Source of the DNA: Eubacterium sp. An11
Lineage (GTDB): Bacteria; Bacillota; Clostridia; Lachnospirales; Lachnospiraceae
Direction of reading: 5' to 3'
DNA length: 64,000 nucleotides
Assembly: GCF_002161065.1 (NCBI RefSeq)
Contig: NZ_NFLV01000006.1
Coordinates: 1-64,000, forward strand
The translations under genes and the position numbers were made by a program. Shown here one piece after another: positions 22,100 through 40,573 of this stretch. Each line of letters starts with the position of its first letter. Position 1 is the first letter of the stretch. Under the pieces are notes generated by a model that made no database searches, was not told the origin of the DNA, and was given only the letters and a program-made list of their open reading frames with translations.

Positions 22100-22354
22100 C
22101 TTACATTATATGGCCGCCCGGCCGGCTTTATGCCTTCCGGATCCCGTTCTTCCATCCGCCCTGACGCTTTTGACATAAGATTCCCTCCTGTGCACGGCGC
22201 TTCAAAAGATTTTCCTTCCCTGTCTGTAAAATCGCAAAAGAATACTTGTACTTTATGGCTAATTTGCATTTACTTTCCCCTTCTTTATTTATATAATATA
22301 TGCAATAGAGTTTAAAATTTGGATACGTATGCGCTTTTGTGGAAAGGAGCGAGT
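22100..22354. promoter_or_regulatory. Divergent control region between spoIID and the eutS arm
   Basis: A TATAAT (22292-22297) lies 58 bp upstream of the shell gene on the plus strand, with no good -35, which would suit activator-dependent expression. No operator was identified. Confidence 0.4.
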
Positions 22355-22732
22355 ATGGCAAAAGATATGATAAACAACGGGATCAACTCAGAAGACAAAT
22401 CCCGTATGATACAGGAATACGTTCCCGGCAAACAGATAACTCTCGCCCATATGGTTACCCGCCCGAAGGCCTCTGTCTATAAGAAGCTGGGTCTGCCGGA
22501 CGATTACCATGATGCCATCGGTATCATGACGATCACTCCATCGGAGGCGACGATCATAGCAGCGGATATCTGTACCAAGGCCGCTTCTATCAAGCTGGGA
22601 TTTGTAGACCGTTTTTCCGGTTCTGTGATCATTGTGGGTTCCACCGCGAATGTGGAGTCCGCGCTGAACAGTGTCATCACTACTTTTTATAACAAGCTGG
22701 GATTTGATACGGTCGCTATCACCAAGACGTGA
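22355..22732 (+). CDS. eutS: BMC shell protein, EutS/PduU type
   Basis: 125 residues from the ATG at 22355, with GGAAAGGAG upstream. It is a circularly permuted BMC-domain protein: an N-terminal beta-barrel strand region (RMIQEYVPGKQITLAHM), DAIGIMTITPSEATIIAADI, then KLGFVDRFSGSVIIVG. EutS/PduU hexamers occupy the shell of ethanolamine and propanediol microcompartments and are paired with EutP/PduV. Here the partner gene follows 15 bp downstream. This shell gene sits apart from the main pdu operon and on the opposite strand. Confidence 0.9.
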   Translation: MAKDMINNGINSEDKSRMIQEYVPGKQITLAHMVTRPKASVYKKLGLPDDYHDAIGIMTITPSEATIIAADICTKAASIKLGFVDRFSGSVIIVGSTANVESALNSVITTFYNKLGFDTVAITKT

Positions 22733-22747: not shown

Positions 22748-23227
22748 ATGAGAATTATGCTAATCGGCCCTTCGGCCGCCGGAAAGACAACGTTGATTCA
22801 GCGTCTTATCGATAAGGAGATCAAATACGACAAGACACAGACGGTGGAATATGTGGGGAATTTTATAGATACGCCCGGTGAGTACATGCAGCAGCGCGGT
22901 TACTGGGGCTCTTTGACCATCACTTCCCATGATGCGGATATCATTGGTCTCGTGCAGGATTCCACCAGTGAAGACTGCTGGTTCTCCGGCGGTCTCACCA
23001 CAAAGTTTGAAAAGCCGGTTGTCGGCATTCTCACGAAGATTGACCGGGAGGATTCCAATCAGAAGCAGGCCCGTTCTTATCTGGAACTGGCTGGCTGCAG
23101 AGATATTTTCGCGGTAAGCTCTTACACCGGCGAGGGTGTGGACGAGCTTTCAGACAGTCTTCACAAAATGGTTGAGAAGTACAAAGAAGAGAATGCCCGG
23201 CGCTATGAGGCAGATTATTTTGATTAA
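22748..23227 (+). CDS. eutP: EutP/PduV family P-loop protein
   Basis: 159 residues. Walker A is GPSAAGKT (7-14), with DTPGEYM as the G3-like motif and TKID as the G4 motif of a Ras-like GTPase fold. PduV binds the microcompartment through PduU and has been linked to its movement; EutP of Salmonella has been reported to have acetate kinase activity. Adjacent position to eutS supports the assignment. If it were an acyl kinase it would partly fill the lack of a PduW-type gene in this locus (inference). Confidence 0.88.
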   Translation: MRIMLIGPSAAGKTTLIQRLIDKEIKYDKTQTVEYVGNFIDTPGEYMQQRGYWGSLTITSHDADIIGLVQDSTSEDCWFSGGLTTKFEKPVVGILTKIDREDSNQKQARSYLELAGCRDIFAVSSYTGEGVDELSDSLHKMVEKYKEENARRYEADYFD

Positions 23228-23282: not shown

Positions 23283-24569
23283 TTGATTATACTGACTAAA
23301 GAGAATGTGACTGATTATGTAAAATCAAGGCTTGATTTTTTTAATACAGACGGCGGTCCGGTGACGGTCTCCGCCATCGGGGAAGGTTCCGTTGAGGAAG
23401 ACGGCGACGGCTTTATCAATATGGTTTTTCGTGTGTCTGACGGAAAGTATCATTTGATTGTCAAACAGTCCACCGCCGAGCCCCGCTGCAAGGGGGATTT
23501 TGTTCTGGATGTGAATCGTTTCAAACTGGAATACGAATCCATGCATATTCGCAAGGCAATTGTTCCGGATCTGATTCCGGATTTATATGATTGTGACGAT
23601 GAGAACCGGATTTTTATCACAGAAGATGTATCCCGGCTGCGGATTTCCCGTTTTCAATTATTGAAGGGTGTCACATATCCGCTTCTGGGCGAACAGGTTG
23701 CCCGCTATATGGCTGCCAATAATTTCTACACATCGGAATTTTATCTGGACGGAAAGACCTTCCGCGATCTGTCCGTACATTTCATGAATTCCACCATGAG
23801 AGAGATTATGGACGTGGGCATGTTCCTTACCAGCGTTTCCCCGGAAGATACAGTGGGACGGCCGCTGGATCCGGATTTTGTCACATTTTCCAAGAGGATC
23901 TGCGCTGATCCGGCGGTGCTTCTCTCCAGACAGAAGCTTCGTCATCTTTTTATGACCAAGGGAGAATGTCTGATCCACGGCGACTTACATACATCTAATA
24001 TTTTTGCCAGCCAGACGGAGGCAAAGATCATTGATATGGAATATACGTTCTGCGGACCGTTTTCTTATGATATGGGTTATTTCCTGGCGAACTTTATCGC
24101 TCAGTATGCAGCCGCATTGTTCCGTCCGTACAAGACAGAACAGGCCCGCACGGTATTTAAGGATTACTGCCTGTTTATGATCAAAGAAACGTACTGCAAG
24201 TTCTGCGATTATTTCTGCCGTTACTGGGACGAGGACGCCAAACCGGTGTATCAGCATGTTCCGGGACTGCAGCAGGATTTCCGCCTGACCACGCTCAGAG
24301 AGTTCATTGGTTTTGCGGCTTCCGCCATGCTGGGACGGATTGCCGGAGATATTCCTTATCCGGATTATGACGACATTGACGATTATGTGGCACGGCACAA
24401 CGCCAAGTGCTATTCTATCATCCTGAACCGGCAGATGCTGGTTAAATGGGAACAGTACAACACGATTGACGAGTTTATCAACGATATGCGGACTGTGGAG
24501 GATATTTACTGCCGGTACGCAAGAGAGTACGATGAACAGCAGGCACAGAAGAATTTGGCTGGAAAGTAG
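23283..24569 (+). CDS. MtnK-like (APH-fold) small-molecule kinase 1
   Basis: 428 residues from a TTG start; GGAGGAGG lies 7 nt upstream and the paralogue begins with the same MIILTKEN. The fold is that of 5-methylthioribose kinase: probable ATP-binding Lys61 (LIVKQS), catalytic loop LIHGDLHTSNIF (Asp234) and the metal-binding Asp251/Glu253 in IDMEYTFCGPFSYD, which parallel HGDLHTGS and DPEFAFYGP of MtnK. Its place in a B12-dependent microcompartment locus is unusual. The substrate is unknown; 5-deoxyribose, choline-like amines or a sugar alcohol are all possible. It lies 55 bp after eutP and 15 bp before a paralogue. Confidence 0.82.
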   Translation: MIILTKENVTDYVKSRLDFFNTDGGPVTVSAIGEGSVEEDGDGFINMVFRVSDGKYHLIVKQSTAEPRCKGDFVLDVNRFKLEYESMHIRKAIVPDLIPDLYDCDDENRIFITEDVSRLRISRFQLLKGVTYPLLGEQVARYMAANNFYTSEFYLDGKTFRDLSVHFMNSTMREIMDVGMFLTSVSPEDTVGRPLDPDFVTFSKRICADPAVLLSRQKLRHLFMTKGECLIHGDLHTSNIFASQTEAKIIDMEYTFCGPFSYDMGYFLANFIAQYAAALFRPYKTEQARTVFKDYCLFMIKETYCKFCDYFCRYWDEDAKPVYQHVPGLQQDFRLTTLREFIGFAASAMLGRIAGDIPYPDYDDIDDYVARHNAKCYSIILNRQMLVKWEQYNTIDEFINDMRTVEDIYCRYAREYDEQQAQKNLAGK

Positions 24570-24584
24570 GAGGGAGAGTCGGTT

Positions 24585-25823
24585 ATGATTATTTTGACCA
24601 AGGAAAATATCGTTTCTTATATTAATGATAATGTCCCTTCTATTCATCTGGAAGAACCGGTAACGGTAAATGTTATCGGCGAAGGGGATCTCAGCGAGGA
24701 CGTGGAAGGAGACGGCTACTGTAACTTTGTATTTCGTGTCGCAGACGCTCATTCTTCTTACATCGTAAAACAGTCCACCAGCCATCTGCGTCGTCGGGGA
24801 CAGCCGATCACACCAAAGAGGAACCGGTATGAGTATGAGATCATGCAGCTTCGTTCCAAGATCGTTCCTCAGTATGTACCGTCTCTTTATCACGGTGATT
24901 TTGAGAATAATATTTTTATCATGGAAGATGTCTCAAATCTGAAGCTGGTTCGTTATCAGATGAACGAGAATCACCGGCTGCCGGAGCTGGCCAGCCAGGC
25001 TGCCCAGTATCTTGCCGCCACACATTTTTATACTTCAGAGTTTTATCTGGATTCCGAAGAATACCGCAGTCTTCTCTCTTATTTTATGAATGCCGAGATC
25101 CGGCATGTGATGGAGGACGGTATCTTCCTCGGCATCTTCGGCTCCGATGAGTTTGATCATGCCTGCGGTCCGGAATTTGAAGAATACTGCTGCAATATTT
25201 ACAAGGATACGGAGATCACATTCCAGCGTTTTAAGCTGCGTCATTTGTTCATGAGCAAATCAGAGACTCTGATCCATGGTGATTTCCATACATCCAATAT
25301 GTTTGCGGATGATACACATTTGAAGGTTATCGACATGGAATATACCTTCGGAGCGCCGTTTTCTTATGATTTAGGTTTCATTCTGGCCAATATCATCAGC
25401 CAGTTCTGCTCCGCCGCCTTCCGTCCGTTTGATGAGGAGAGCGAGAGAAAGGTCTGCCTGTCATACCTGATCACAATCATGCATCTGCTTTATACAGATT
25501 ACATTTCTTATTTCTTTGAGTACTGGGAGAAAGACGCCAAGCTGGAATACAAGCTGGCCAAGGGGTATAAGGAGTCTCTTTCCCTTGATATCCTGCGCGA
25601 GTGCTTTGGTTTTGCCGCCTGTGCTAATCTCTGCCGGGTATGCGGAACCATGCAGACCGCGGACTTTGACCACATCAAGGACAATCATCTGCGTACACAG
25701 GCGAAGTTCCTCTCCGTGGAGATTGACGAGCTTCTGTTCCGCAAATGGTTTACCTACAACACGATTGATGAACCGCTCAACGATATGATCGCATTATTAA
25801 AGAAGCGCAGAGAGATTGTGTAA
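24585..25823 (+). CDS. MtnK-like (APH-fold) small-molecule kinase 2
   Basis: 412 residues, roughly half identical to the preceding gene by eye and collinear with it. It keeps all catalytic features: Lys62 (YIVKQS), IHGDFHTSNMF (Asp233) and VIDMEYTFGAPFSYD (Asp250, Glu252). AGGAGGGAG precedes the ATG. Because both copies retain full active sites, they have probably diverged in substrate rather than one being a pseudoenzyme. It is the last gene of the plus-strand arm and ends at a strong terminator. No isomerase or aldolase of a methylthioribose or deoxyribose salvage pathway is nearby. Confidence 0.82.
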   Translation: MIILTKENIVSYINDNVPSIHLEEPVTVNVIGEGDLSEDVEGDGYCNFVFRVADAHSSYIVKQSTSHLRRRGQPITPKRNRYEYEIMQLRSKIVPQYVPSLYHGDFENNIFIMEDVSNLKLVRYQMNENHRLPELASQAAQYLAATHFYTSEFYLDSEEYRSLLSYFMNAEIRHVMEDGIFLGIFGSDEFDHACGPEFEEYCCNIYKDTEITFQRFKLRHLFMSKSETLIHGDFHTSNMFADDTHLKVIDMEYTFGAPFSYDLGFILANIISQFCSAAFRPFDEESERKVCLSYLITIMHLLYTDYISYFFEYWEKDAKLEYKLAKGYKESLSLDILRECFGFAACANLCRVCGTMQTADFDHIKDNHLRTQAKFLSVEIDELLFRKWFTYNTIDEPLNDMIALLKKRREIV

Positions 25824-25947: not shown

Positions 25948-26007
25948 AAAACAGCCCTGCAGGTTCCGGGATTTATGAATCCCGTTTTTTCCCGCAGGGC
26001 TGTCTTC
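25948..26007. terminator. Terminator closing the kinase arm (bidirectional)
   Basis: ACAGCCCTGC (25951-25960) pairs with GCAGGGCTGT (25994-26003). Nested inside, CGGGATT/AATCCCG is followed by TTTTTT on the plus strand. It lies between convergent genes. Confidence 0.85.
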
Positions 26008-26010
26008 TTT

Positions 26011-26361
26011 TTATCGCCAGGAGAACACATTAAACTTTGATGTCTTGTGTTCCAGTTCCAGGGAATCTTTGGCAATTTTGTAGGAATCCAGGTAGCAGTA
26101 GGTTGCTCCCTCTTCTTCCGGCTCGTTATCGTGGAAACGTTTCTGGGAATCCACTTTCACTGTCATGCTCCAGCACGGTTCCAGCACGTTTGTACTTCTG
26201 TAGAAGAGGTCAAACATGACAACGCCGATGCCTTCTCTCGGATCTTTAAAGGTAAAAGACGGTTCACCGTTTTCTTCCAGGCCGTTCATCCGGCACATTC
26301 CGATGAAATTCAAAATTGCTTTTTTGTTATTCTCACCGATTGGTATATATGTCTCTGCCAT
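26011..26361 (-). CDS. Uncharacterised 116-residue protein
   Basis: Begins MAETYIPIGENNKKAILNF with AAGGAG 7 nt upstream, so translation is likely. No signal peptide or membrane segment. The middle is beta-rich with aromatic and acidic residues (IGVVMFDLFYRSTNVLEP, EEEGATYCYLDSYKIA). I do not recognise the family. It sits between the terminators of the two microcompartment arms as an independent unit, so a link to the pathway is possible but not shown. Confidence 0.65.
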   Translation of the reverse strand: MAETYIPIGENNKKAILNFIGMCRMNGLEENGEPSFTFKDPREGIGVVMFDLFYRSTNVLEPCWSMTVKVDSQKRFHDNEPEEEGATYCYLDSYKIAKDSLELEHKTSKFNVFSWR

Positions 26362-26696: not shown

Positions 26697-27248
26697 TTAT
26701 TTCAGCAGGTTTTCCACAATTGACGGATGTGGACGTGGAATGATGGATGTGGAAGTCACTTCACCGCTGATGCTCAGCTTCGCAAGACAGGCATTCACTG
26801 CGGATCTTACGGAAGATACTTCGCCGGTGATAACCAGGTATCCTTTTCCACCTAAACCTCTGGCGATTCTTAAATCAACAATACTTACTTTGGAAGCCTT
26901 TACTGCAACATCGGCTGCGATAACTGCTGTCAAAGCGGAGATTGTCTCAATTGCACCAACTGCCTGAATATTCTCTGTATTGGTAAATCCGGAAATTGCC
27001 GGAAGAACTTCTTCACGAACATTATCAAGAATGTGTGTATCGATCAGATAGATGCCGCTCACGAGCTCTGCTTTGCTCATGGCTGCCTTTACCGGACCAA
27101 CATGTCCGCCGATGATAATCACATACTTGCCAGGGCAGATTGGTGTAGCTAATAATAATTCTACATTTCCTGCTTTTACCATCTCATCAGCCGTCTGGAT
27201 ACCAACAGGAATGCTTTTAATTTCTACAAATCCAACTGCTTTTCTCAC
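26697..27248 (-). CDS. pduT: Tandem-BMC shell protein, PduT-like (Fe-S)
   Basis: 183 residues from a GTG at 27248, with AAAGGATGG upstream and pduS ending 17 bp before; this equals the usual ~184-residue PduT length, whereas the longer open frame overlaps pduS. Two BMC domains occupy about 1-92 and 93-183. A Cys in ATPICPGKY matches the residue that binds a [4Fe-4S] cluster at the pore of PduT trimers. The protein probably passes electrons across the shell, which fits its pairing with PduS. It is the last gene of the operon. Confidence 0.87.
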   Translation of the reverse strand: MRKAVGFVEIKSIPVGIQTADEMVKAGNVELLLATPICPGKYVIIIGGHVGPVKAAMSKAELVSGIYLIDTHILDNVREEVLPAISGFTNTENIQAVGAIETISALTAVIAADVAVKASKVSIVDLRIARGLGGKGYLVITGEVSSVRSAVNACLAKLSISGEVTSTSIIPRPHPSIVENLLK

Positions 27249-27265
27249 TGCGTAAACACCATCCT

Positions 27266-28594
27266 TTATTTTTCGATTGAAATACAACCGTCAGCGATTT
27301 CCTTAATTGTACCGCTGATACTAGCATGAATACAAGCACCTAATTTACCTTCTGCAGGTTTAGCGATCACATCGCCTTTTGTAACTGTATCACCGACATT
27401 TACACATGGGACTGCCGGAGCACCGATGTGCTGTCCGCACGGGATAGAAACGTGATCTATCTCTTTTGGAATCTCTGTCAGTGGCGCAGCCACATTGTAT
27501 TTTGAGAGACCGAGATTTGCGATAAGCTTTTTAATCGGATATTTTTTGTATTCTCTCATTGGATGTGCTGATTCAGGCGCATTATGCAATGTATTTTTGA
27601 TACCCTGCTTTGCCATGATGCCTTTTAATTCATGATTTACCTTCCATGGCTGGAGGTTCATGATACAAGCGTACTGGCAAAGACGACATTCTGAACATAA
27701 GAATGCGATCATAGGAGTATCGGATCCGTCACACAAATGGCCATAACTAGCAAATCTGATAGTCTTATGCGGAGCAATTCTATGTCCTATCAAATTACGA
27801 GGACATACTTCTGTACAAAGGCTGCAGTGGCAGCACGCAGCTTTTGCGATATGAAGCATCTTGGAAATGTCCATCTTCACATCCTGAATCAACGGATGAC
27901 TTTCCGGTAATACGATCAGGCCCTTTGTGGTCTTGGTAATCTTGGAATCCAGAGGAACATGTTTGCCCATCATAGGACCGCCATTAATGACAACATACGG
28001 ACCATCCACAGTGACGCCGCCCGCCAGATCCAGGGCTTCTTTCACTGTCATACCGAGAGGAAGCTTCATGGTCACATGGTTCTTCACTTCTCCGGCAAAG
28101 GTTACGTAGGAATCCGTAACCGGTTTGTCCTCGTAATAAGCGTTATAAATGTTAAGGACTGTCTCAACATTAGAAACGATAACGCCTACGTTCAATGGAA
28201 TACCGCCTTCAGGAACGATTCTTCCCGTCACTTCGTATACCGTAACCTGTTCATCACCCGCTGGGTAAAAGTTTTCGAGAAGATGAAGGCTAAAGCCTTC
28301 ATACTCCCCAATAAGCTCATTAAAGCTGTTGATTGCTGCTGTGTAATGTTCTTTTAATGCAATAACGACTTTATCTGCGCCTACGGTTTCTTTGATGAGC
28401 TTTAAGCCTTCAAGGATTTTTCTTGTCTCGACTGCCATCAGCTGCTGATCCACTCTCAGCAGCGGTTCACATTCCGCGCCGTTGAGGATGACATATTCAG
28501 CCTTGGCATTTACTTTTACATGAGTAGGAAAACCTGCACCACCGGCACCTACAATACCGGACTGAGCGATAACATCAATAAGGTTTTTTTCCAT
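27266..28594 (-). CDS. pduS: PduS, RnfC-like cobalamin reductase
   Basis: 442 residues from the ATG at 28594, with GAGGTGAG 4-8 nt upstream. The N-terminus holds GAGGAGFPTHVK (flavin/NADH-binding, as in RnfC and NuoF), a SLBB-type middle, and two [4Fe-4S] motifs (CCHCSLCTEVCP and CSECRLCQYAC). The C-terminal ~60 residues resemble a biotinyl/lipoyl-like barrel (GQHIGAPAVPCVNVGDTVTKG). PduS reduces cob(II)alamin so that PduO can adenosylate it. It lies 16 bp after pduP and before pduT. Confidence 0.92.
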   Translation of the reverse strand: MEKNLIDVIAQSGIVGAGGAGFPTHVKVNAKAEYVILNGAECEPLLRVDQQLMAVETRKILEGLKLIKETVGADKVVIALKEHYTAAINSFNELIGEYEGFSLHLLENFYPAGDEQVTVYEVTGRIVPEGGIPLNVGVIVSNVETVLNIYNAYYEDKPVTDSYVTFAGEVKNHVTMKLPLGMTVKEALDLAGGVTVDGPYVVINGGPMMGKHVPLDSKITKTTKGLIVLPESHPLIQDVKMDISKMLHIAKAACCHCSLCTEVCPRNLIGHRIAPHKTIRFASYGHLCDGSDTPMIAFLCSECRLCQYACIMNLQPWKVNHELKGIMAKQGIKNTLHNAPESAHPMREYKKYPIKKLIANLGLSKYNVAAPLTEIPKEIDHVSIPCGQHIGAPAVPCVNVGDTVTKGDVIAKPAEGKLGACIHASISGTIKEIADGCISIEK

Positions 28595-28610
28595 TTTACT
28601 CACCTCTTAA

Positions 28611-30017
28611 TTATTTCATTCTGATATGGAGACCATCCTTTAATACACATCTTCTCTTACGGCAGAATGATTTCGCAGATGTCAGACCTTCACCTGTAGG
28701 ACCTGCGATGGTAAATGTGGTGTATCCCATTCCGCCAACGCCGATACCAGCATAAGATGGGCCGTTCTTAACGAAAATAGTTGTTTCGATTTCTTTTGCC
28801 ATCTTGGTAAGCTTATCTACATTTCTGGAATGCATCATTGCTGTATGTCTGTTTCCGTGTTCAACTTCTACGGCAAATTCGATTGCTTCATCAACGTTTG
28901 CCACACGAACGATAGGAAGAATCGGCATCATCAGCTCGATCTGAACAAATGGATGATCCTTCGGAGCTTCCATGATGATACATTTTACTTCCGGACCAAC
29001 TTTAATACCTACCTTGTCAAGGATATACTGTGCACTCTTACCAACAAAGTTTACGTTCGGTTTCTTTCTGTCGTTTGTAACCATGTCAACCATCTGCTCG
29101 ATGATAGCAGGATCTTTTACTTCATAAGCGCCGTTGTTCTTCATGTTGAAAATCAGATAATCTGCGATCTGATCAACAGCGATAACTTCTTTCTCTGCGA
29201 TACAAGGAAGGTTGTTATCGAAGGAGCATCCGTTTACGATATCAACGGCAGCTTTCTCGATATCAGCTGTCTCATCAACAACAACAGGAGGGTTACCTGC
29301 TCCGGCTCCGATTGCTTTCTTACCGGTGGACATAACGGCCTTAACGATTCCAGGACCGCCGGTAGCAACCAGCATACGAACCTTTGGATGATTCATCATG
29401 ATATTGGTGTTCTCGATGGATGGTTCTTTTACAGTAACAACCAGGTTTCTCGGAGCTCCCAGTTCTTCCAGTTTTGCGTTGATCTTTTTGATCAGCCAGA
29501 TGGAAACACCTTTGGAACGTGGATGCGGGCTGAATACTACAGTATTGCCGCCGGCCAGCATTCCGATGGAGTTACAGATTACTGTCTCTGTAGGGTTCGT
29601 TGTCGGTGCGATTGCTCCGATAACACCAAATGGGCAGTACTCAACCAGTGTGAGTCCGTCATCTCCGGATAAAGCTTCTGTGGTCAGATCTTCGATTCCA
29701 GGAGATTTCTCTGCTGCCAGTCTGTTTTTGATCAGTTTATATTCATAAGCTCCCATACCGCTTTCTTCTACGGCCAGTTTGCTCATGTATTCCAGATTTT
29801 CTTTCTGGCAAACTACCTCTCTGATTCCATTGACAAATCTTTCTCTGTCTGCCATGGAATAGTTCATATATTCTTTCTGCGCTTTTGCAGATGCTTCGAT
29901 CGCGTCATCCATTGTCTCAAAAATACCATAGGTATAATCGTCAGCAGGGCAAGCGGATTCAACATCTGTCAAAACCTTTTTCACAACTTTTTCAATTAAT
30001 TGAACATCAATATTCAT
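28611..30017 (-). CDS. pduP: PduP, CoA-acylating aldehyde dehydrogenase
   Basis: 468 residues. The first ~18 residues (MNIDVQLIEKVVKKVLTDV) form an amphipathic helix of the sort that targets PduP to the lumen. The aldehyde dehydrogenase domain shows APTTNPTETVICNSIGML, ATGGPGIVKAVMSTGK and the catalytic Cys in FDNNLPCIAEKE. It oxidises propionaldehyde or 3-hydroxypropionaldehyde to acyl-CoA with NAD+. GGAGG precedes the ATG, which overlaps the pduO stop by 1 nt (TAATG), so the two are translationally coupled. Confidence 0.94.
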   Translation of the reverse strand: MNIDVQLIEKVVKKVLTDVESACPADDYTYGIFETMDDAIEASAKAQKEYMNYSMADRERFVNGIREVVCQKENLEYMSKLAVEESGMGAYEYKLIKNRLAAEKSPGIEDLTTEALSGDDGLTLVEYCPFGVIGAIAPTTNPTETVICNSIGMLAGGNTVVFSPHPRSKGVSIWLIKKINAKLEELGAPRNLVVTVKEPSIENTNIMMNHPKVRMLVATGGPGIVKAVMSTGKKAIGAGAGNPPVVVDETADIEKAAVDIVNGCSFDNNLPCIAEKEVIAVDQIADYLIFNMKNNGAYEVKDPAIIEQMVDMVTNDRKKPNVNFVGKSAQYILDKVGIKVGPEVKCIIMEAPKDHPFVQIELMMPILPIVRVANVDEAIEFAVEVEHGNRHTAMMHSRNVDKLTKMAKEIETTIFVKNGPSYAGIGVGGMGYTTFTIAGPTGEGLTSAKSFCRKRRCVLKDGLHIRMK

Positions 30018-31036
30018 TATGCATTTCCTCCTTGCATTTTTTCTAATGCATATATAGCAACTGCCATATCTTCTTCGGCAGTACCTCCGCTGACGCCGAT
30101 GGCACCGATAATCTTGCCATCAACTTCAATCGGATATCCACCACCAAAACATACAATCCTGCCATCTCCGGAGTTATGAAGACTCCATAAGCTGTCACCC
30201 GGCTTGGTGACATCGGCAAGAGCTGAGGTTGGACACTTAAGAGCACATGCAGTATATGCTTTGTCCTGTGATACTTTCACGCTGATCAGAAGAGAACCTT
30301 CCATTCTCTGGAAATAGAGAAGATTGCCTCCCTCATCCACTGCGGAAAATACCATCGGCACACCAATTTCATTTGCTTTCTCTTCTACAAATTCAGCCAT
30401 CTTTTTCAGGCTCTTTAAAGACATGTCCATCTTGCATTCTCCTTTATTGCCGGCGCCTCCCATGGTTTCTTTCACCACTTTACGCACTACCTCTTTGAGC
30501 TCCTCGATTTCCTGCTGCTGTGCTCTGGACTCCTCCAGACGGGCCATGGCAAAGCATGCATCCGAAAGACGATTGATATATTTTCGTAATTCATCGCGAA
30601 CAGGAATCTCCCTGGCAAGGGTTGTTATTTTTCTTTCCGCCCGTCTTACGACTGTCCTTGCCACATGCAAGGCTGCGGAAGATGGATTCACTCCAGGCAC
30701 TACGAACTCGCGCATCAGCCCATTGACTTTTGTTGATTGATCGACAATATCTTCCAGGTATTTGATGTCTGCCTCTCCAATTTTGTCCTTAAGCATCTCC
30801 AAGCCTTTTTCATCAGACGCGAATTCTGCTCCTGCCTGGAACATTCTTTTCTGAATATGATTGATATATTCTCTGATATCCGGTGACTCAGTCTGAGCGT
30901 AGGCAACTCCCAGTGCGGAAATCGCCTCGTCGATGGTTCCGTAGACATCCACATTCATGCTGTCCTTATCTACTCTGGAACCACCATATAATCCTGTCGT
31001 CCCTTTGTCACCCGTTTTTGTATAAATATTAGCCAT
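30017..31036 (-). CDS. pduO: PduO, ATP:cob(I)alamin adenosyltransferase with GlcG/HbpS C-terminal domain
   Basis: 339 residues. Residues 1-190 are the PduO-type adenosyltransferase: MANIYTKTGDKGTTGLYGGSR (ATP-binding) and RTVVRRAERK plus RDELRKYINRLSDACF near the active site. Residues about 205-339 form the DUF336/GlcG-like domain (LLISVKVSQDKAYTACAL, GGGYPIEVDGKIIGAIGVSGG) that binds haem or cobalamin in some homologues. The enzyme makes adenosylcobalamin for the dehydratase from ATP and reduced cobalamin supplied by PduS. Confidence 0.93.
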   Translation of the reverse strand: MANIYTKTGDKGTTGLYGGSRVDKDSMNVDVYGTIDEAISALGVAYAQTESPDIREYINHIQKRMFQAGAEFASDEKGLEMLKDKIGEADIKYLEDIVDQSTKVNGLMREFVVPGVNPSSAALHVARTVVRRAERKITTLAREIPVRDELRKYINRLSDACFAMARLEESRAQQQEIEELKEVVRKVVKETMGGAGNKGECKMDMSLKSLKKMAEFVEEKANEIGVPMVFSAVDEGGNLLYFQRMEGSLLISVKVSQDKAYTACALKCPTSALADVTKPGDSLWSLHNSGDGRIVCFGGGYPIEVDGKIIGAIGVSGGTAEEDMAVAIYALEKMQGGNA

Positions 31037-31048
31037 ACATTCACACCT

Positions 31049-31330
31049 TTAACACTGTGACACTTCCACGGTATCCACAATCCCAACAATTGCGGCATCG
31101 ACAGGAAGACTGTTTTTCTTTTCACCATCACCTGACATACGAGCCGAACTGCCGCCAACGACAATTACGGTTTCGCCATCACCGGCTCCAACAGTATCGA
31201 CGGCAATTTCAGTCTGCTTTTTGGCGGTAAGATCCTGGTTGATCTTCTCGACGATCAGAAACTTGCATCCGGTCAGACTCGGGCATTTTACAGTAGATAC
31301 CACTGTGCCAATTACTTTACCTAAATACAT
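31049..31330 (-). CDS. pduN: PduN, pentameric BMC vertex protein
   Basis: 93 residues, the typical size of the EutN/CcmL/PduN family. It starts MYLGKVIGTVVSTVKCPSL, has the GAGDGETVIVVGGSSAR segment that lines the pentamer, and ends VDAAIVGIVDTVEV. Five copies cap each vertex of the shell. It lies 12 bp before pduO. Confidence 0.94.
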   Translation of the reverse strand: MYLGKVIGTVVSTVKCPSLTGCKFLIVEKINQDLTAKKQTEIAVDTVGAGDGETVIVVGGSSARMSGDGEKKNSLPVDAAIVGIVDTVEVSQC

Positions 31331-31343
31331 GTCTTCACCTACT

Positions 31344-32204
31344 TTACTCTCTCACAATCGTGATGCCACGATTGTATGCTTCGTCACTTGCGAGACCTGT
31401 CACAACTGCGCCAGCTCCCACAATAATGGTTTTATATCTTGCATTTCTGGCAATGTCCACACGGCCGATAACATTCTTATTCAGCTTGATGCTGGATGCT
31501 TCCTCCGCCGCCGCACTGCCGCTGCAGGATGGCTGTGCTGTCTGCTCCGCTTTTACCTTCGCCGGTTTTGCGTTGGAATCCGGTGACGGAAAATCAAAGC
31601 TGGCAGTATAGACTTTATTTACTTTCTCAAACAGATTATTGTCAACAGTGAGATGGATTCCGTAGGACTGCAGCGCTTCAAGATTGCTCCGCATCCGGGC
31701 CTTGTAAGCGTCCGTCACCTTGAATCCCATCTTTGCTCTGACCTCATTATCCGGACAGCAGCCGTCGACAGCAGCCACTACCGGCTTTCCGGTGGCCATC
31801 GCCCTGGAAATCATGTTCGTGAGCAGGTTGTCACTGATACAGTTTGCCACCTTTGCCGCCGTATTAATGGTCAGCGCAGGTACGATCACGAACTGATTAT
31901 CATCAATAATCTGTCTTCCATTTACCGGAGCGCCCTCAACATAAATGGCATCCGGACCAATATCATTCTGAATACGCTCTTTTGTCAGAACTTCATCGGC
32001 AGCTTTTGACATTACGACTGTCAGCTCCCAGCCATCATTTTTCAGCTCTTTCAGAGATTTCACCGCATCTGCATATCCAATAAGAGCTCCTGAGAAAAGA
32101 ACGGCAGCCTTTTTGCAGGCATTCATATATCTCAGAACAATCTGGTCAGAAATATATTCCACAATGGTTGACATAAGCGCATTCTCAAATTCGTTTCTAT
32201 TCAT
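31344..32204 (-). CDS. HFCD-type flavoprotein of the microcompartment operon
   Basis: 286 residues. Residues about 30-190 match the flavoprotein (PF02441) fold of UbiX, Dfp and dipicolinate synthase B: AAVLFSGALIGYADAVKSL at the start and VIVPALTINTAAKVANCISD, the classic flavin-site run. A Ser/Ala/Lys-rich linker follows, then a C-terminal ~45-residue segment (NKNVIGRVDIARN; TIIVGAGAVVTGLASDEA) that resembles the T-x-x-A helix motif at the N-termini of EutQ/EutT. It occupies the place where pduL and pduM stand in Salmonella. Flavin chemistry is inferred; the substrate is unknown. Confidence 0.75.
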   Translation of the reverse strand: MNRNEFENALMSTIVEYISDQIVLRYMNACKKAAVLFSGALIGYADAVKSLKELKNDGWELTVVMSKAADEVLTKERIQNDIGPDAIYVEGAPVNGRQIIDDNQFVIVPALTINTAAKVANCISDNLLTNMISRAMATGKPVVAAVDGCCPDNEVRAKMGFKVTDAYKARMRSNLEALQSYGIHLTVDNNLFEKVNKVYTASFDFPSPDSNAKPAKVKAEQTAQPSCSGSAAAEEASSIKLNKNVIGRVDIARNARYKTIIVGAGAVVTGLASDEAYNRGITIVRE

Positions 32205-32213
32205 TTATGCCAC

Positions 32214-33032
32214 CTATTGTCTGTTACAATTCATGGCAATTCCAAGGGGTGTCACCAGCAGCGGTTCCTTTGGCTTGATCGTCTTGATCCCGGTTTCCTT
32301 CTCAAAGACACTCTCGAACTTCTTAAAGCTGCAGGCACCGCCTACCACATAAATCACGTCCACATCGTATCCCTGGATGAAACGGGAGACAATCGCCGCC
32401 ATCTTCTCGATTACCGGCTTCACGACTGGAAATACCAGTACCTCCTGTTTCGGATCTTTTTTGATTCTCTCGGCTTCCTCAAAGGTGCATCCAAGACTTC
32501 CGGCAAGAACCAGAGTCATATGAGTACCACCTGTGGGCTCATCGGCCGTAAAAACCACTTTTCCATCTTTGAGAATACTGATACCGGTTGTTCCGCCACC
32601 GACATCCACAACCGCTCCGTCTGTAATTCCAAGAACGGAGGCAGCAGCCGTTGGCTCATCGATCACATTGACCACGTCCAGACCCACAGATTCCACAACG
32701 TTGGAAATGACTTTTACATTACCGGATATGATTCCCGGAGGAATGGCTGTGGCCGCTTCGCGGAACTCCACGCCCATCATCTGTTCCAGCCGGTTCTTCA
32801 TATTCTGAACCGCTCTGGACGCCCCGAGGAAATCAACAACGATTCCATCCCGGACCACTGTAGAAGGATAAGAAGCCCCTGCAATCGGGGTATTGTTGGA
32901 GTCCACCACTGAAACCACGATATTGGCGGTTCCCAGGTCCACTCCCAGTCTCAGCTCTCCTTCATATGGTCGAAATTCTTCATTTTTAATCAGCTCTGAA
33001 AAGCCGACCAAAACATCATTATAATTATTCAT
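32214..33032 (-). CDS. eutJ: EutJ family Hsp70-like ATPase
   Basis: 272 residues of the actin/Hsp70 ATPase fold without a substrate-binding domain. Motifs are LRLGVDLGTANIVVSVVD (phosphate 1), VIDEPTAAASVLG, VVDVGGGTTGISI (phosphate 2) and YVVGGACSFKKFE (adenosine). EutJ homologues are predicted chaperones for microcompartment enzymes; the role is not proven. It lies 9 bp before the flavoprotein gene and 193 bp after the tailed shell gene, a gap that holds a strong hairpin. Confidence 0.88.
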   Translation of the reverse strand: MNNYNDVLVGFSELIKNEEFRPYEGELRLGVDLGTANIVVSVVDSNNTPIAGASYPSTVVRDGIVVDFLGASRAVQNMKNRLEQMMGVEFREAATAIPPGIISGNVKVISNVVESVGLDVVNVIDEPTAAASVLGITDGAVVDVGGGTTGISILKDGKVVFTADEPTGGTHMTLVLAGSLGCTFEEAERIKKDPKQEVLVFPVVKPVIEKMAAIVSRFIQGYDVDVIYVVGGACSFKKFESVFEKETGIKTIKPKEPLLVTPLGIAMNCNRQ

Positions 33033-33123
33033 GCATTCCCCTTACTATCTAATGACCATTTCTGTATCATCATTGTCAAGGCATCATGCATTTGCCTCAC
33101 GTATCTACAGTATCATGAGATCA

Positions 33124-33154
33124 GATCAGGTGCGATGCGATACCGCACCTGATC
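33124..33154 (-). other. Intercistronic hairpin between tailed shell gene and eutJ
   Basis: Perfect 11-bp stem GATCAGGTGCG/CGCACCTGATC with a 9-nt loop; no T run follows. It is placed in a 193-bp gap of an otherwise tightly packed operon, so a processing or mRNA-stability role is likely. Confidence 0.6.
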
Positions 33155-33225
33155 ATACCTCAGTATTACGATCTGATTTTATTGAAACACAGGCCCGGAT
33201 CTTTTGAAATATCCTCTATGTCAGA

Positions 33226-34065
33226 TTATTTATCTGTGTTTTTGTCTGTGTTCTTTTTCTTTCTAGATCTTCCGCTTCTTCTATTTCCTGTTGATGGTTT
33301 TTTGGCAGGAGCATCTGTATTCGTTACAGTTTCAGCTTTTTTCTCCTCCGCAGGCGCCTCTTCCTTTGGCTCTTCCTCAGGAGCTGCAACCGGGGCTTTT
33401 TCTGCCTCAGGAGCTGCGACCGGTTCCGTTTCCTCCGGTTTGGCTTCTTCCTCTTTCGGAGCTTCTTCCGGCTGGCTCTCTGTTTCTTTCGGAATCTCTT
33501 CCACGGAGTCTTCCTCTTTTGAAACTTCCTCAGACTGTACTTCTTCAGTCTTTGGAGCCTCTTCCGGCTGATCCTTCACTGAATCTGTTACTGTATTTTC
33601 ATCAGATGTGTTTTTCTCCGGCTCTTCAACTACAGGCGGTTCAGGTGCTTCTTCCATTGGCGTTTCAGCCTTTGGCTCTGCTTTCGGCTTCCAGTTCTTA
33701 ACAAGAACCGGCTGTTTCGACTCACCTTTCGGGCGATAGCCTTCTGCCATTGCGATCTCACCGCCAACAGTTTCTCTGTTGTCTACCATAAGCTTTCTCA
33801 TGCTTGGAGCCGGTCTTGCTTTCAGCAGTACACTCTTTGTACCGCTTAAAGAGCCCTGTACGGATTCCGCCGCCTTTTTGCCAGCTTCCACCGCCGCTTT
33901 GCAGGCTCCCACATTGCCTTCTACCTTTACGGTACACATACCGCCGCCCTTTGCATATTCGAAACCGAGCAGTTTGACATTGGCAGATTTCACTGCCGCG
34001 TCAGCCGCTGCCACACAGGCAGCCAGGCCAAAGGTCTCAATAAAACCAATACTCTTGTCAGCCAC
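33226..34065 (-). CDS. BMC shell protein with long acidic Pro/Glu-rich C-terminal tail
   Basis: 279 residues from a GTG start (GGAGG 7 nt upstream). Residues 4-95 are one BMC-H domain (SIGFIETFGLAACVAAADAA to the RPAP segment). Residues about 130-255 are a disordered tail with repeated PEEAPK/EE units and dozens of Glu, and the last ~24 (STGNRRSGRSRKKKNTDK) are strongly basic. It stands where pduK, another tailed shell protein, lies in Salmonella, but this tail is much longer and lacks Cys. The tail may project into the lumen or cytosol to hold enzymes or link compartments; this is inference. Confidence 0.85.
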   Translation of the reverse strand: MADKSIGFIETFGLAACVAAADAAVKSANVKLLGFEYAKGGGMCTVKVEGNVGACKAAVEAGKKAAESVQGSLSGTKSVLLKARPAPSMRKLMVDNRETVGGEIAMAEGYRPKGESKQPVLVKNWKPKAEPKAETPMEEAPEPPVVEEPEKNTSDENTVTDSVKDQPEEAPKTEEVQSEEVSKEEDSVEEIPKETESQPEEAPKEEEAKPEETEPVAAPEAEKAPVAAPEEEPKEEAPAEEKKAETVTNTDAPAKKPSTGNRRSGRSRKKKNTDKNTDK

Positions 34066-34104
34066 CTTTACACCTCCTTACTTTTCAGATTAAAACTTCT
34101 ATGA

Positions 34105-34467
34105 CTAGTCCAGACTGCGGAACGGCATCTTCTTTACGAGTCTTGCCGCATTGGATCCGATATTTCTGAACTGATCTGTCTGATAAAACTTAATTCTAAA
34201 AAGAGGGGCCGCTTTATCTAGCTTTTCATACTGAAGAACAACGCCTTCTTTGCTGATTCCAACGCCCACCCCTAATCTTGATTCCAAGCTGGCATTATGG
34301 GCAAGTTCCAGAACGTCCGCACAATGCTCTGCCTGAAGGTCATAGGGGATTCCTTCTTCTTCGATTCCAAGAAGAACACCGGAAAAATCAGCCAAAGAAA
34401 GATGGTCACAGTCATAAAAAACTTTTATTGAAGGTCTTGTATTTATTCCTGTATTACTTCCTTCCAT
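34105..34467 (-). CDS. pduH: PduH, small subunit of dehydratase reactivase
   Basis: 120 residues from the ATG at 34467; GGAG lies 8 nt upstream within the end of pduG, so this start is preferred to an overlapping TTG at 34473. The sequence (RPSIKVFYDCDHLSLADF, LLGIEEEGIPYDLQ, GVGVGISKEGVVLQY) matches the beta-subunit-like fold of PduH/DhaG/DdrB, which displaces inactivated cobalamin from the dehydratase together with PduG. Confidence 0.92.
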   Translation of the reverse strand: MEGSNTGINTRPSIKVFYDCDHLSLADFSGVLLGIEEEGIPYDLQAEHCADVLELAHNASLESRLGVGVGISKEGVVLQYEKLDKAAPLFRIKFYQTDQFRNIGSNAARLVKKMPFRSLD

Positions 34468-34469
34468 AC

Positions 34470-36290
34470 TCAATCTCCTATTTCAGAACAAGACATTGCC
34501 AGTCCTGTTGCCACCGCATTTCGAGGTCCCTCGCATCCGCGAATGTTACCCCGGCCAGCTACTATATTATATTGTGATAATGCATCAGTTACGAGAGTCG
34601 GCACCTCAAAGTCCAGTGCAGAACCGCCGACTAATACTACAAATTCAATATCTCTTACATTTCCCGTCGGGCTGACCTTGGCCAGCGAACGGATTGCATT
34701 TGTAACAAATACTTTTCGCTTTGCATTAGTCCGTACCAGCTTAATCTTCTCCAGGGAGGAAAATCCCTCAAGCGGTACTAATTCTCCACCTTCCTTTACC
34801 AATACAACCTTTGCGAAAACACCCGGATCCAGCGGTTCCTCAAAGAACTGCACTGTTCCGTCTTCATGGCGGATGTGGAAAAGGCTTTCCACCTTTGCCA
34901 GAGGATATTTTTTAATGTCTTCCGCTGTGTTAAAGTCTTCAAGACCCAACTCAGATTGAATCAGGAGAGTAACCATATTGCCGGCACCAGCCAGATGCAC
35001 GAGCTTTACATCTCCGTCTTTATTCTTAATGGATGCGTCTGTCGAACCTGCGCCCATATCAACAATTGCAATCGGCACGTTCGTACCCGGTGTCGTCAGA
35101 GCACCTTTGATAGCCATATCGGCTTCCACGCCGCCGACATATACAGGTATTTTCAATCTGTCAGTCAATTCTTCGGCGATCATCTGCATCTGCAGACGGT
35201 CCGCCTTAACCATAGCCGCGATACCAACGGCGCTTTCCAGTGAGTACTCATTGGCCAGTCCGCCCTTTACCTGCTGTGGATTATAGGTATCCACTGCCAG
35301 TAAATCCTGAATCTTGATATCTCTCGGATGCTGGTTGGTAAGATTTGACATAACCTGACGAACTTTTTCAAGCATTCCGCCGGCATTCGTTCCCGGTTCG
35401 CCTTTAATATCTTCGATGACATCAATGCTCTTTACGGCATCCATCATCTTCTCAGCGCCTTCGTCAACGCCAACCGTTACTTTCTTCTTTTTACCAATAA
35501 TTTCAATTGAACCAGCAGGGATCCGTCTTTCCTTTACATCTCCCTCAGGTGTCTTAATTACAACAGCAGAACGGTTTCCGATCAATGCACGGGCAATCGG
35601 AACCACCTGCTTTGTCTCTTCCGGTGTCAGCTTAAAGAGAGTCGCGATACCGTACGGGTTGGAGAGAACTTCCACAACTCCGCCCACAGCCGCAACCTCC
35701 ACGGCACATTTCATGCCCAGCGGGACTTTATCGACCATTCCCACTTCATCAACAATCGGAATCTTTTTCTCAAGACGGTTGTTAATTAAAACGCCATCAT
35801 CGCGCTGGACAATGGCACCTGTAATATTTAATATTTTATTATACTGGTTAATAATCTTTGCAGCGGCTTCAAAGGAAATACTTGACGGGATAACCACTAT
35901 CACATCTGTACCAGATTCCACCTTATCCAGCTTTGTAATCATCTGGGATGTTCCAACACCAATCCCAATACCACCTGGGGTATTGGGATTGTGTCCAATC
36001 ATGGTAGATTCAGTGATAATAGTTTCGGTAATCGTTTCCATGGCAACATCACCGATTACGGGAGCTGCCTCATTCACGCGAACTTCATCCAGATCACCGA
36101 TGTCGAGCCCAACCTTGTCCAAAGCTCTCTTCAGGGACTGGAAAACGCCGTGAATATTCTGTTTTGTTCCTTTAATTCCGGTGGTACCTGTGATACCACT
36201 GGAAAGAAACGTCACATGCTTTCCGTCGATCCTGGCAACGGCTGTCTCTGTCGTCGCATTGCCAATATCAACGCCCGCAACTAATTTCAC
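34470..36290 (-). CDS. pduG: PduG, large subunit of diol/glycerol dehydratase reactivase
   Basis: 606 residues from a GTG start with GGAGG 8 nt upstream. It has the Hsp70-like ATPase fold of DdrA/DhaF/PduG: VAGVDIGNATTETAVARIDG at the N-terminus, PGGIGIGVGTSQM, and PIAIVDMGAGSTDASI later. With PduH it exchanges damaged for fresh adenosylcobalamin using ATP. Presence of this protein independently indicates that the dehydratase is B12-dependent rather than a glycyl-radical enzyme. It ends 2 bp before pduH. Confidence 0.94.
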   Translation of the reverse strand: MKLVAGVDIGNATTETAVARIDGKHVTFLSSGITGTTGIKGTKQNIHGVFQSLKRALDKVGLDIGDLDEVRVNEAAPVIGDVAMETITETIITESTMIGHNPNTPGGIGIGVGTSQMITKLDKVESGTDVIVVIPSSISFEAAAKIINQYNKILNITGAIVQRDDGVLINNRLEKKIPIVDEVGMVDKVPLGMKCAVEVAAVGGVVEVLSNPYGIATLFKLTPEETKQVVPIARALIGNRSAVVIKTPEGDVKERRIPAGSIEIIGKKKKVTVGVDEGAEKMMDAVKSIDVIEDIKGEPGTNAGGMLEKVRQVMSNLTNQHPRDIKIQDLLAVDTYNPQQVKGGLANEYSLESAVGIAAMVKADRLQMQMIAEELTDRLKIPVYVGGVEADMAIKGALTTPGTNVPIAIVDMGAGSTDASIKNKDGDVKLVHLAGAGNMVTLLIQSELGLEDFNTAEDIKKYPLAKVESLFHIRHEDGTVQFFEEPLDPGVFAKVVLVKEGGELVPLEGFSSLEKIKLVRTNAKRKVFVTNAIRSLAKVSPTGNVRDIEFVVLVGGSALDFEVPTLVTDALSQYNIVAGRGNIRGCEGPRNAVATGLAMSCSEIGD

Positions 36291-36335
36291 TTTATATACC
36301 TCCGTTGTCTGTTTCGTTCCAGTTTATATGCGGTA

Positions 36336-36394
36336 ATCAGGGGTGCTTCACCTGGTACAGCAATCCAGCGCTGTCCAGGTTCTGCCCCCTTGAT
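36336..36394 (-). other. Nested intercistronic hairpin between pduE and pduG
   Basis: ATCAGGGG pairs with CCCCTTGAT (one bulge), then ACCTGG/CCAGGT, then ACAGC/GCTGT, making a long nested stem within the 124-bp gap. No T run follows. Likely an RNA processing or stability element. Confidence 0.6.
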
Positions 36395-36414
36395 CCGTCA
36401 CGGAAGCGTGCTGA

Positions 36415-36909
36415 CTATTTTTTTAAACGTCCACGTTTTTCGTAAATATCAGCTGCTTCTTTTACGAAGTTACCACAAACAGTTGCGCCGTACTGGTTGA
36501 TTAACTCATCAGCGATAGCGTATAATTCAGCTTTTGTGGAACGATAAGGTCTTAATGCATTGTAAATCTCAAGAAGTCTTGCGTCTGGTACAGGGATTAA
36601 CTCACCAGCTCTTCTTAAGTTTACAGCGAAGAATCCACGTCCTGCGGATTCAGCAACCTGAGCCTGTAATTCCAGAGTTTCTTTTGTGATACGGAAATCT
36701 TTGGCGTCTAAAGTACCATCGATAACACCCTGTAATGTTAACTCATCCAGAGATTTACCTGATGCACTCTTAATTAACTCAGGTCTTTTTTCTCCAATAG
36801 GATAATCAGCGGCTGTTACTTTGCCTTCGCATTCACAAGCTGCTGCAGAGCCCTGCATATTTTTAAGCACTTCCTGCATAATCTGTCTTACTAATAATTC
36901 CTGATCCAC
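36415..36909 (-). CDS. pduE: PduE, small subunit of B12-dependent diol/glycerol dehydratase
   Basis: 164 residues from the GTG at 36909, chosen because ACGGAGG then sits 8 nt upstream; an alternative GTG 9 nt earlier overlaps that site. The N-terminal helix (ELLVRQIMQEVLKNM) is of the encapsulation type. The body contains SLDELTLQGVIDGTLDAKDFRI and ARLLEIYNALRPYRSTKAEL, hallmarks of the gamma subunit. Confidence 0.94.
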   Translation of the reverse strand: MDQELLVRQIMQEVLKNMQGSAAACECEGKVTAADYPIGEKRPELIKSASGKSLDELTLQGVIDGTLDAKDFRITKETLELQAQVAESAGRGFFAVNLRRAGELIPVPDARLLEIYNALRPYRSTKAELYAIADELINQYGATVCGNFVKEAADIYEKRGRLKK

Positions 36910-36924
36910 GATTGACACCTCCGT

Positions 36925-37569
36925 TTATTTAAATTCAACTTTAAGAGCTTTAGGAGCTTTATTTCTGTCGGCATGTTCTGTCTCTTTGATGTGAAGAACA
37001 GCGGATAAAGCCTGGTATTTCGGTCTTGCCATCTGGTCATTCTTTACTGGTACAGGGTTTGGAGATTCGCCTTTTGCGTATTTAGCAGCGTTCTTACCAA
37101 TTGCTCTGTATGTTTCAAGGTCAATCAGAGGGCACTGAGGGAATAACTCCAGGTTAGACAGTGGTGGGAGGTCTTTCTGATGGATTACAGTAGTACCTTT
37201 GGACTGGATACCAATACCAATGCCTGATCCAGATAATTCTGCTGCATCATGAGCGATAAAGGATACGTCAGATGTTCTGTATACTTTAACGATTCTGCAG
37301 GCAACGCCTTCTTCCTCAAGACCAGCCATGATTTCTTTGATGATGGCTGCGTGAGGAACACCAACGATATTCTTTGTCTGGGATACGCCGAAAGCCGGTG
37401 CAACGCCTAAAACAACTTCGTTAGGGTTTGTACCTTTCTGAGCATCGCCAACTTCTGTGATGGTCATGCCTTCGGAACAAGCCTCTTCAGCTGCTGCTGC
37501 GGAAGTAGTGTTCATTTCTTTGAGAACTTCAGCGATAACGCTTTTTAATAATCTTTCATCAATTGCCAT
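36925..37569 (-). CDS. pduD: PduD, medium subunit of B12-dependent diol/glycerol dehydratase
   Basis: 214 residues. The N-terminal ~18 residues ([19 protein letters not shown]) form the amphipathic targeting helix that in Salmonella directs the whole dehydratase into the compartment. The body shows [20 protein letters not shown] and [19 protein letters not shown], typical of the beta subunit that binds the lower face of cobalamin. GGAAGGTG precedes the ATG. It lies 33 bp after pduC and 15 bp before pduE. Confidence 0.95.
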
Positions 37570-37602
37570 TATAGTTCACCTTCCTTAAAATAGACTATCT
37601 TA

Positions 37603-39264: not shown

Positions 39265-39325
39265 GGTCTCAACACCTCTCAATTTCTCAATTAAACTTTC
39301 TTCTATACTATCTTACAGAAGCTCC

Positions 39326-39404
39326 GATATCTGCCTTTCCGTTCACATTATGTAAGCAGATATCCCATTTACCAGTTCCCTTATGTTCTCTCAACGTACA
39401 TAAG
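39326..39404 (-). other. Two intercistronic hairpins between pduB and pduC
   Basis: GATATCTGC/GCAGATATC (39326-39334 with 39356-39364) and CTTATGT/ACATAAG (39380-39386 with 39398-39404) occupy the 165-bp gap between pduB and pduC. Neither has a following T run on the minus strand. Confidence 0.55.
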
Positions 39405-39429
39405 GTATGCTAAAAATCAAAGCGTTATC

Positions 39430-40257: not shown

Positions 40258-40300
40258 TGAATTATACCTCCATTAATAATTGATCAGACTAGGACTAAAC

Positions 40301-40573
40301 TTATTGTGGTAAGATTTTTTCTACGTCTGTATGTGGTCTTGGGATTACATGGCTGGACACAACTGTACCTACCTTGTCAGCAGCAACTGTACCTGCATCA
40401 ACAGATGCCTTAACAGCTCCTACATCACCTCTGACCATAACAGTAACTAAACCAGATCCGATTTTCTCATATCCCACCAGTGTTACGTTTGCTGATTTAA
40501 CCATGGAATCGGCTGCTTCGATTGCGCCAACCAAACCTTTGGTCTCAATCATTCCTAAAGCTTCTTTCTGCAT
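40301..40573 (-). CDS. pduA: PduA, major hexameric BMC shell protein
   Basis: 90 residues, one BMC-H domain: [56 protein letters not shown], and the C-terminal [21 protein letters not shown] lies 6 nt before the ATG. It is the first gene of the main operon and likely the most abundant shell component, with a pore for the diol or glycerol. Confidence 0.95.

Follow-up and report, generated by a model that had tools for sequence, protein, structure and literature searches.

Why should two tandem genes that resemble methylthioribose kinase (MtnK) sit in a bacterial microcompartment (BMC) locus built around a B12-dependent dehydratase? The question is raised by the 64,000-nucleotide stretch of Eubacterium sp. 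An11 analyzed here as a whole (contig NZ_NFLV01000006.1; referred to as the window), in which kinA (positions 23283 to 24569) and kinB (24585 to 25823) are intact open reading frames (ORFs) on the plus strand. We read kinA and kinB as members of a separate, unnamed pdu-linked kinase family, which alignment and tree place as sister to methylthioribose kinase and not inside it. Comparative data show that across three groups of bacteria this family goes with the B12-dependent diol dehydratase. Within the window, eutS, eutP, kinA, and kinB are closely packed into a single plus-strand unit, and a B12-dependent pdu microcompartment operon converges on it from the minus strand. As the first-pass annotation of this DNA had seen, the kinase pair follows eutS-eutP with short gaps (15 bp between eutS and eutP, 55 bp between eutP and kinA, and 15 bp between kinA and kinB).

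The MtnK family, TIGR01767, is by far the best match for both proteins, but kinA (249 bits) and kinB (255 bits) both score below the curated cutoff of 275 bits. Seven relatives score between 208 and 268 bits; a fusion of MtnK with the isomerase MtnA, also carried by the window genome, scores 421 bits, and the MtnK of Klebsiella pneumoniae scores 503 bits. Pfam matches of kinA and kinB are to APH- and choline-kinase-type families only. When 41 BMC-type kinases are aligned with 14 MtnKs, all sequences share the ATP lysine, the D-x-E metal motif (DME), and the catalytic aspartate of the HGD motif, with D233, D250, and E252 (numbering of Bacillus subtilis MtnK, structure 2olc) found in 41/41 BMC-type kinases. 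The first-pass annotation had credited both genes with the MtnK active-site set, and for these residues that description stands. It does not extend to the HTSN segment after the catalytic loop, where 14/14 MtnKs read H[TS]GS and 41/41 BMC-type kinases read H[TSA]SN. The two groups also part at the twin arginine R340/R341, which we take to be a portion of the methylthioribose (MTR) substrate site (Ku et al. 2007): all 14 MtnKs have RR, whereas the first arginine is lost in all 41 BMC-type kinases and the second is kept in all of them. In the window, kinA accordingly has D234, S238-N239, DME, and G351-R352 in place of RR, and kinB has D233, S237-N238, DME, and C350-R351.

The 14 MtnKs lie on one side of a branch with support of 100/98. 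On the other side, kinA, kinB, a third paralog (kinC), both kinase groups of a second bacterial family, and a Fusobacteriota group each form one clade; the tree is unrooted, and uniting the eutS-eutP-linked group of the second family with the rest as a single clade rests on shared sites. The next solved relative after two MtnK-like chains is 4-hydroxytryptamine kinase, which has the D-x-E motif and also an asparagine at the second site of the SN/GS pair; because of this likeness, the asparagine is probably ancestral. The evidence that the kinA/kinB family is distinct from MtnK is good, and we hold this distinction to be highly probable.

Both paralogs are under strong purifying selection. Against the closest of the relatives compared, the ratio of nonsynonymous to synonymous substitution rates (dN/dS) is 0.025 for kinA and 0.024 for kinB at a dS of about 1.1, most wider pairs being saturated at silent sites. 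Since kinA and kinB also form separate, fully supported clades, the earlier view of two maintained paralogs holds, and a dN/dS of about 0.025 rules out a pair of pseudogenes. An in-frame TAG in the kinB of one relative (G005) is just the terminal stop, after residue 407, and gives no sign of a pseudogene. Among 24 genomes of the genus, the window's own included, 18 carry a kinB ortholog of at least 62% identity, and in another two, eutS-eutP-kinA is seen at the edge of a contig, bringing the kinase order to 20/24. In each of these 20, eutS-eutP lies upstream of a kinase in at least one locus (in G007 and G013 as read on named database records). One contig (G016:C174, locus L061) carries kinA-kinB with no eutP match in the 1,056 bases before its end, and the same assembly has another locus with eutS-eutP-kinA. 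The linkage of the kinases to eutS-eutP exceeds chance and supports the earlier assignment of the pair to the BMC locus.

That assignment had been staked on linkage in related genomes, and the eutS-eutP-kinase order does recur in other genomes. In a second family, sampled with 40 genomes and probably the Eubacteriaceae (a name taken from the published gene order of Acetobacterium woodii), 28 of 31 loci (7/7 in a first set and 21/24 in a later set) have a eutS-eutP-kinase unit that contains one or two kinases and mostly lies next to prmA; the three remaining stretches (L218, L219, and L240) lack eutS-eutP. A shell-protein gene kept across genomes together with linked non-shell genes is the mark of a BMC satellite locus, and the unit bears it. 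One genome of the second family has a kinase, an AraC-type regulator, and a lone BMC shell gene in a row (L096:4830-7356), and this kinase groups with kinA in the tree (support, 89/82). The A. woodii study describes a satellite of pduU, pduV2, and a "methylthioribose kinase" (Awo_c26570-26590) with the same gene order as the window unit, compared here by published order and not by sequence; the authors call the kinase unrelated to BMC function. It was the only study returned by a literature search for pduU with methylthioribose, and the main texts of two BMC surveys gave no match to the kinase terms tried.

In Fusobacteriota, the kinase lies within the pdu operon itself, after pduT and before an iron-containing alcohol dehydrogenase (Fe-ADH) gene, in 3 of 98 genomes of the class concerned. 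None of these three operons has a eutS-eutP pair beside the kinase, and one carries an acetate-kinase-like gene and a small ORF between the kinase and Fe-ADH genes. One of the loci matches pILYOP01 of Ilyobacter polytropus, where the kinase gene (protein WP_013388763.1) is annotated "phosphotransferase." A class-level sample of 391 genomes gave 21 with a kinase profile match at an E value of 1e-30 or better, a threshold that would miss weaker family members, and 8 of these 21 carry the BMC-type kinase. For the other 13 genomes, 11 loci were read wide, and MtnA adjoins the kinase in 9 of them.

The two kinase types keep different company. We compared the neighborhoods of 137 distinct kinases from the loci collected, of which 33 have the GS pair, 101 have SN, and 3 have neither (one without a pattern match, one AN, and one GN) and were left out of the split; only identical cores were dropped, which leaves close relatives as separate entries, and some of the stretches are short. 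At a distance of up to 6.5 kb, MtnA is found near 28/33 GS kinases versus 0/101 SN kinases, and a BMC or pdu gene near 0/33 GS kinases versus 74/101 SN kinases. A eutP gene lies upstream on the same strand of 68/101 SN kinases. The 27 SN kinases without a BMC neighbor comprise 24 of kinC type, two of the second family (L218 and L219), and one kinB on a short stretch (L020). An ordinary methionine-salvage kinase is ruled out by the missed cutoff, the lost arginine, and the lack of mtnA alongside. The kinase is also no general partner of eutP: it is absent from the 29 EutP loci that were read, besides the window, with 1.5-kb flanks (L122-L149 and L151) and from 20 wider EutP loci, partly the same places, a count kept apart from the kinase-bearing eutP loci of the second family, which were read separately. 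Four more eutP-type genes of the window genome stand apart from every pdu locus seen (L152-L155, at G000:C1:186171, C1:396481, C19:2225, and C94:77067); one is paired with eutS, and the others have no adjoining eutS match.

Presence of the kinase also tracks the dehydratase subunit PduC, as would be expected of an enzyme dedicated to pdu metabolism, in counts that are not independent because of kinship and that pool linked and unlinked kinase copies. PduC occurs in 28 of the 391 class genomes, and it is present in 8/8 of those with the BMC-type kinase. Among the 40 genomes of the second family, 37 have the kinase and 34 have PduC: 34 have both, three have the kinase only (G553, G576, and G577, which are 70 to 81% complete), and none has PduC only. 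The three genomes without the kinase (G555, G562, and G563) all lack PduC.

An ATP-dependent kinase is expected because the catalytic machinery is intact. For activity, substrate, and division of labor, we infer the following. Tentatively, kinA and kinB may be active BMC-linked kinases of a small amino or hydroxy alcohol that supports the adenosylcobalamin (AdoCbl)-dependent dehydratase, with L-threonine or 1-amino-2-propanol as the leading candidate. They would be produced from one unit with a PduU-type shell protein and a PduV-type GTPase-like protein and would serve the neighboring PduCDE microcompartment. Judging from the conserved residues, the lysine would hold ATP, Asn238 and the D-x-E pair would hold Mg, the HGD aspartate would activate the substrate hydroxyl, and the remaining arginine (R352 in kinA and R351 in kinB) would orient phosphate or substrate. 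Loss of the first arginine would mean that the pocket no longer binds ribose, so that the product would stay out of the isomerase-aldolase route taken by MTR and 5-deoxyribose. L-Threonine or 1-amino-2-propanol would instead be phosphorylated for the cobamide linker, making the kinases a nonhomologous counterpart of PduX, and the two paralogs may have diverged in substrate. A fuller version, in which this MtnK sister family supplies L-threonine phosphate or aminopropanol phosphate for adenosylcobamide beside diol BMCs and its tandem copies are specialized for different linker alcohols, is speculative, and we consider it unlikely as a whole.

In Salmonella, pduX follows pduU-pduV-pduW, and PduX is an L-threonine kinase; enteric pdu operons share with the window a kinase in or beside the pdu locus. 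The families differ, PduX being a GHMP kinase and kinA and kinB having the APH- and choline-kinase-type matches described above. PduX is reported as a B12 synthesis enzyme that tends toward the end position in Pdu operons (PMC4315436). The kinase-bearing pdu operon of Ilyobacter closes at 464628 with eutJ and a gene for an aquaporin. One manganese-efflux gene separates it from a cob/hem operon of 18 genes that begins at 466030 and encodes CobD and CbiB. No L-threonine kinase is annotated in that cob operon, PduX itself not having been searched for in any carrier. The Fusobacteriota genome G491 has the same cob genes as Ilyobacter about 10 kb downstream of pduG. A pduX annotation, like that of cobD, is described as missing from the majority of verified cobamide producers (PMC6461909). 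An amino alcohol as substrate would also fit with 4-hydroxytryptamine kinases, whose own substrate is an alcohol that carries an amine, and with AutD, an APH-superfamily kinase of the aminoacetone microcompartment that is linked to 1-amino-2-propanol use and of which Firmicutes aut loci are reported to carry at least two copies (PMC6620236). A kinase of (S)-1-amino-2-propanol from that BMC type has been published. AutD is like kinA and kinB in being an APH-superfamily kinase tied to a BMC and differs in the BMC type; among the 40 solved relatives listed, none is AutD or (S)-1-amino-2-propanol kinase by name. We treat these points as leads rather than tests.

Several observations weigh against an amino-alcohol kinase. 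The nearest characterized relatives are sugar kinases, and genus genomes carry up to three paralogs, beyond the need of one linker step. The kinC-type copies do not adjoin BMC genes. A cobalamin riboswitch precedes the cob operon of Ilyobacter and not the kinase, and no cobalamin riboswitch was found in the window. Found in only 8/391 class genomes, the kinase type is not a general answer to the missing L-threonine kinase. MtnA scores over its cutoff in 20/24 genus genomes and 36/40 genomes of the second family, so that most carriers have the isomerase. In A. woodii, expression of the pduU satellite is reported to be at least 20 to 30 times lower than that of the pdu cluster, and the satellite's products are reported as not found in enriched BMCs (PMC7593272).

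The kinases might instead phosphorylate a diol, a polyol, or an aldehyde-derived BMC compound, either trapping an escaping intermediate or opening a second substrate to the compartment, with the paralogs assigned to different diols. Such a role fits the finding that three groups have the kinase linked to either eutS-eutP or pdu genes, and it fits the Fe-ADH gene downstream of the kinase in the Fusobacteriota operons. To our knowledge, however, no such kinase is listed for the well-studied enteric pdu operons, which weighs against this reading. The first-pass annotation had drawn the line more widely, holding that standard pdu sets have no such kinase, and this is right for enterics and not for the three Fusobacteriota operons. 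For dihydroxyacetone in particular, Ilyobacter already has its own dihydroxyacetone kinase genes (PMC4777399), and we judge that role unlikely. Phosphorylation of a diol, a polyol, or an aldehyde-derived compound is a doubtful explanation as matters stand.

The first-pass annotation had itself proposed that the kinases act on 5-deoxyribose. According to this idea, breakage of AdoCbl in the dehydratase would release 5'-deoxyadenosine, and its 5-deoxyribose, once phosphorylated, would be converted to dihydroxyacetone phosphate (DHAP) and acetaldehyde. The closest characterized relatives of the kinases are MtnK and DrdK, and DrdK acts on 5-deoxyribose and MTR (PMC6079011). The DrdK/DHAP shunt (drdK-drdI-drdA) draws on the same superfamily and has a possible tie to AdoCbl breakdown. 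The kinases are strongly tied to the AdoCbl-dependent dehydratase, and the MtnA found in most carriers of the genus and of the second family would provide the next step. Canonical MtnK can, moreover, be cobamide linked. A cobD gene lies beside canonical mtnK in four genomes of one other genus (L077-L080). In the two loci read further (L109:6719-10990 and L108:5603-9911), the cobalamin operon closes with cobD and, right after it, a canonical trio of mtnK, mtnA, and a class II aldolase gene, an arrangement that appears to link 5-deoxyribose disposal to cobamide synthesis.

The window kinases differ from the DrdK shunt in having no adjoining isomerase or aldolase gene, and since the route needs an MtnA-type isomerase, the distribution of MtnA bears on it directly. 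No such isomerase was found at an E value of 1e-5 in G005, G017, G448, G490, or G491, nor was MtnA found in G564 (83% complete), which has both the kinase and PduC. These carriers include all three Fusobacteriota with a pdu-embedded kinase; G005, assembled as one contig and 99% complete, has kinA, kinB, and kinC and yet no MtnA match. MtnA is therefore not present in every kinase-bearing genome: the isomerase is available in most carriers, yet the kinases persist without it. The loss of R340 from every BMC-type kinase, if the twin arginine does bind the sugar, and the lack of mtnA near any SN kinase point the same way. As the first-pass annotation had stated, isomerase and aldolase genes are absent from the locus, but the genome has both elsewhere. 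MtnK and MtnA are fused in one 798-amino-acid protein on another contig (L015:7969-10365; G000:C50), and a single PF00596 aldolase is encoded in a separate sugar operon. The shunt kinase role in the window genome would be better filled by this fusion. Where MtnA passes the cutoff in the genus (20 genomes), it lies in a reading frame of at least 790 amino acids in 12. The observation of the tandem kinases was thus confirmed and their place in the BMC locus supported; the pathway proposed for them is not supported, and we consider a 5-deoxyribose kinase unlikely.

Two further explanations are very improbable. The first, in which kinA and kinB are protein kinases or docking factors for the PduU-PduV pair and not metabolite kinases, would suit genes that lie mostly downstream of pduU-pduV in two families and a PduU-PduV interaction reported from two-hybrid assays (PMC4315436), but the similarity is to metabolite kinases, and in the pdu operons of Fusobacteriota no eutS-eutP pair adjoins the kinase. 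The second, in which the kinase is a mere neighbor without BMC function, as stated for A. woodii, could appeal to the kinC-type copies away from BMC genes, but linkage in three groups with differing genomic surroundings and co-occurrence with PduC speak against it.

The kinC copies show conserved synteny only, near metA/aroF-type genes or near cysE and a gene for a B12-binding radical SAM protein. In five genus loci compared (L014, L046, L048, L050, and L064), this unlinked third paralog adjoins the B12-binding radical SAM (DUF4080) gene, as at L014:7927-12056, and three of the five also have next to it a divergent gene that is membrane-protein-like and has no Pfam family.

A consensus scan predicts a sigma-70-type promoter for the eutS-eutP-kinA-kinB unit, TTTACT-17-TATAAT, at 22269 to 22297 on the plus strand. 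In 16 aligned upstream regions of the genus, counted by eye, TTTACT and TATAAT are each exact in 14, and the element AAAAGAATACTTGT stands upstream of the promoter in 8. The eutS/pduU-type shell gene (22355 to 22732, plus strand; PF00936, with NF012012 below its cutoff) likely starts at the ATG at 22355 after AAGGAG, whereas the ORF listing has an upstream TTG at 22319; this Shine-Dalgarno sequence and ATG are kept in the genus alignment. The eutP/pduV-type GTPase-like gene (22748 to 23227, plus strand) matches PF10662 with an E value of 6e-49 and TIGR02528 over its cutoff. Beyond kinB, the same kind of scan predicts a terminator-like hairpin and T run at 25967 to 25984 (plus strand). Between kinB and pduT, an ORF of 116 amino acids without a Pfam or NCBIfam match (26011 to 26361, minus strand) is present in most genus loci that extend to its position, with 56 to 97% identity in the loci that show it.

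The convergent pdu operon, assigned by family matches, spans 26697 to 41954 on the minus strand. Its genes are pduT, pduS, pduP, pduO, a eutN-type vertex gene, a flavoprotein-like gene, eutJ, a BMC gene, pduH, pduG, pduE, pduD, pduC, pduB, a short BMC ORF, and an Fe-ADH gene; pduG and pduH are named by likeness to annotated Ilyobacter genes, and the short BMC ORF was read by eye in the gap from 40258 to 40799. PduCDE and a reactivase are among the products of this operon. Family matches also identify a two-component pair, an AraC-type response regulator and a PocR-domain histidine kinase, at 41941 to 44274 on the minus strand. No regulator motif shared by the eutS and pdu promoters was obvious by eye.

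By their sequence, genes of the kinA/kinB type pass for methylthioribose kinase. The separate family and its tie to the diol dehydratase hint at an overlooked enzymatic step in propanediol or glycerol BMCs or in their cofactor supply, which would concern gut bacteria related to Anaerobutyricum and probably acetogens too. If the kinases do supply an amino-alcohol phosphate, they would be one way of filling the gap left by the L-threonine kinase that most cobamide producers lack.

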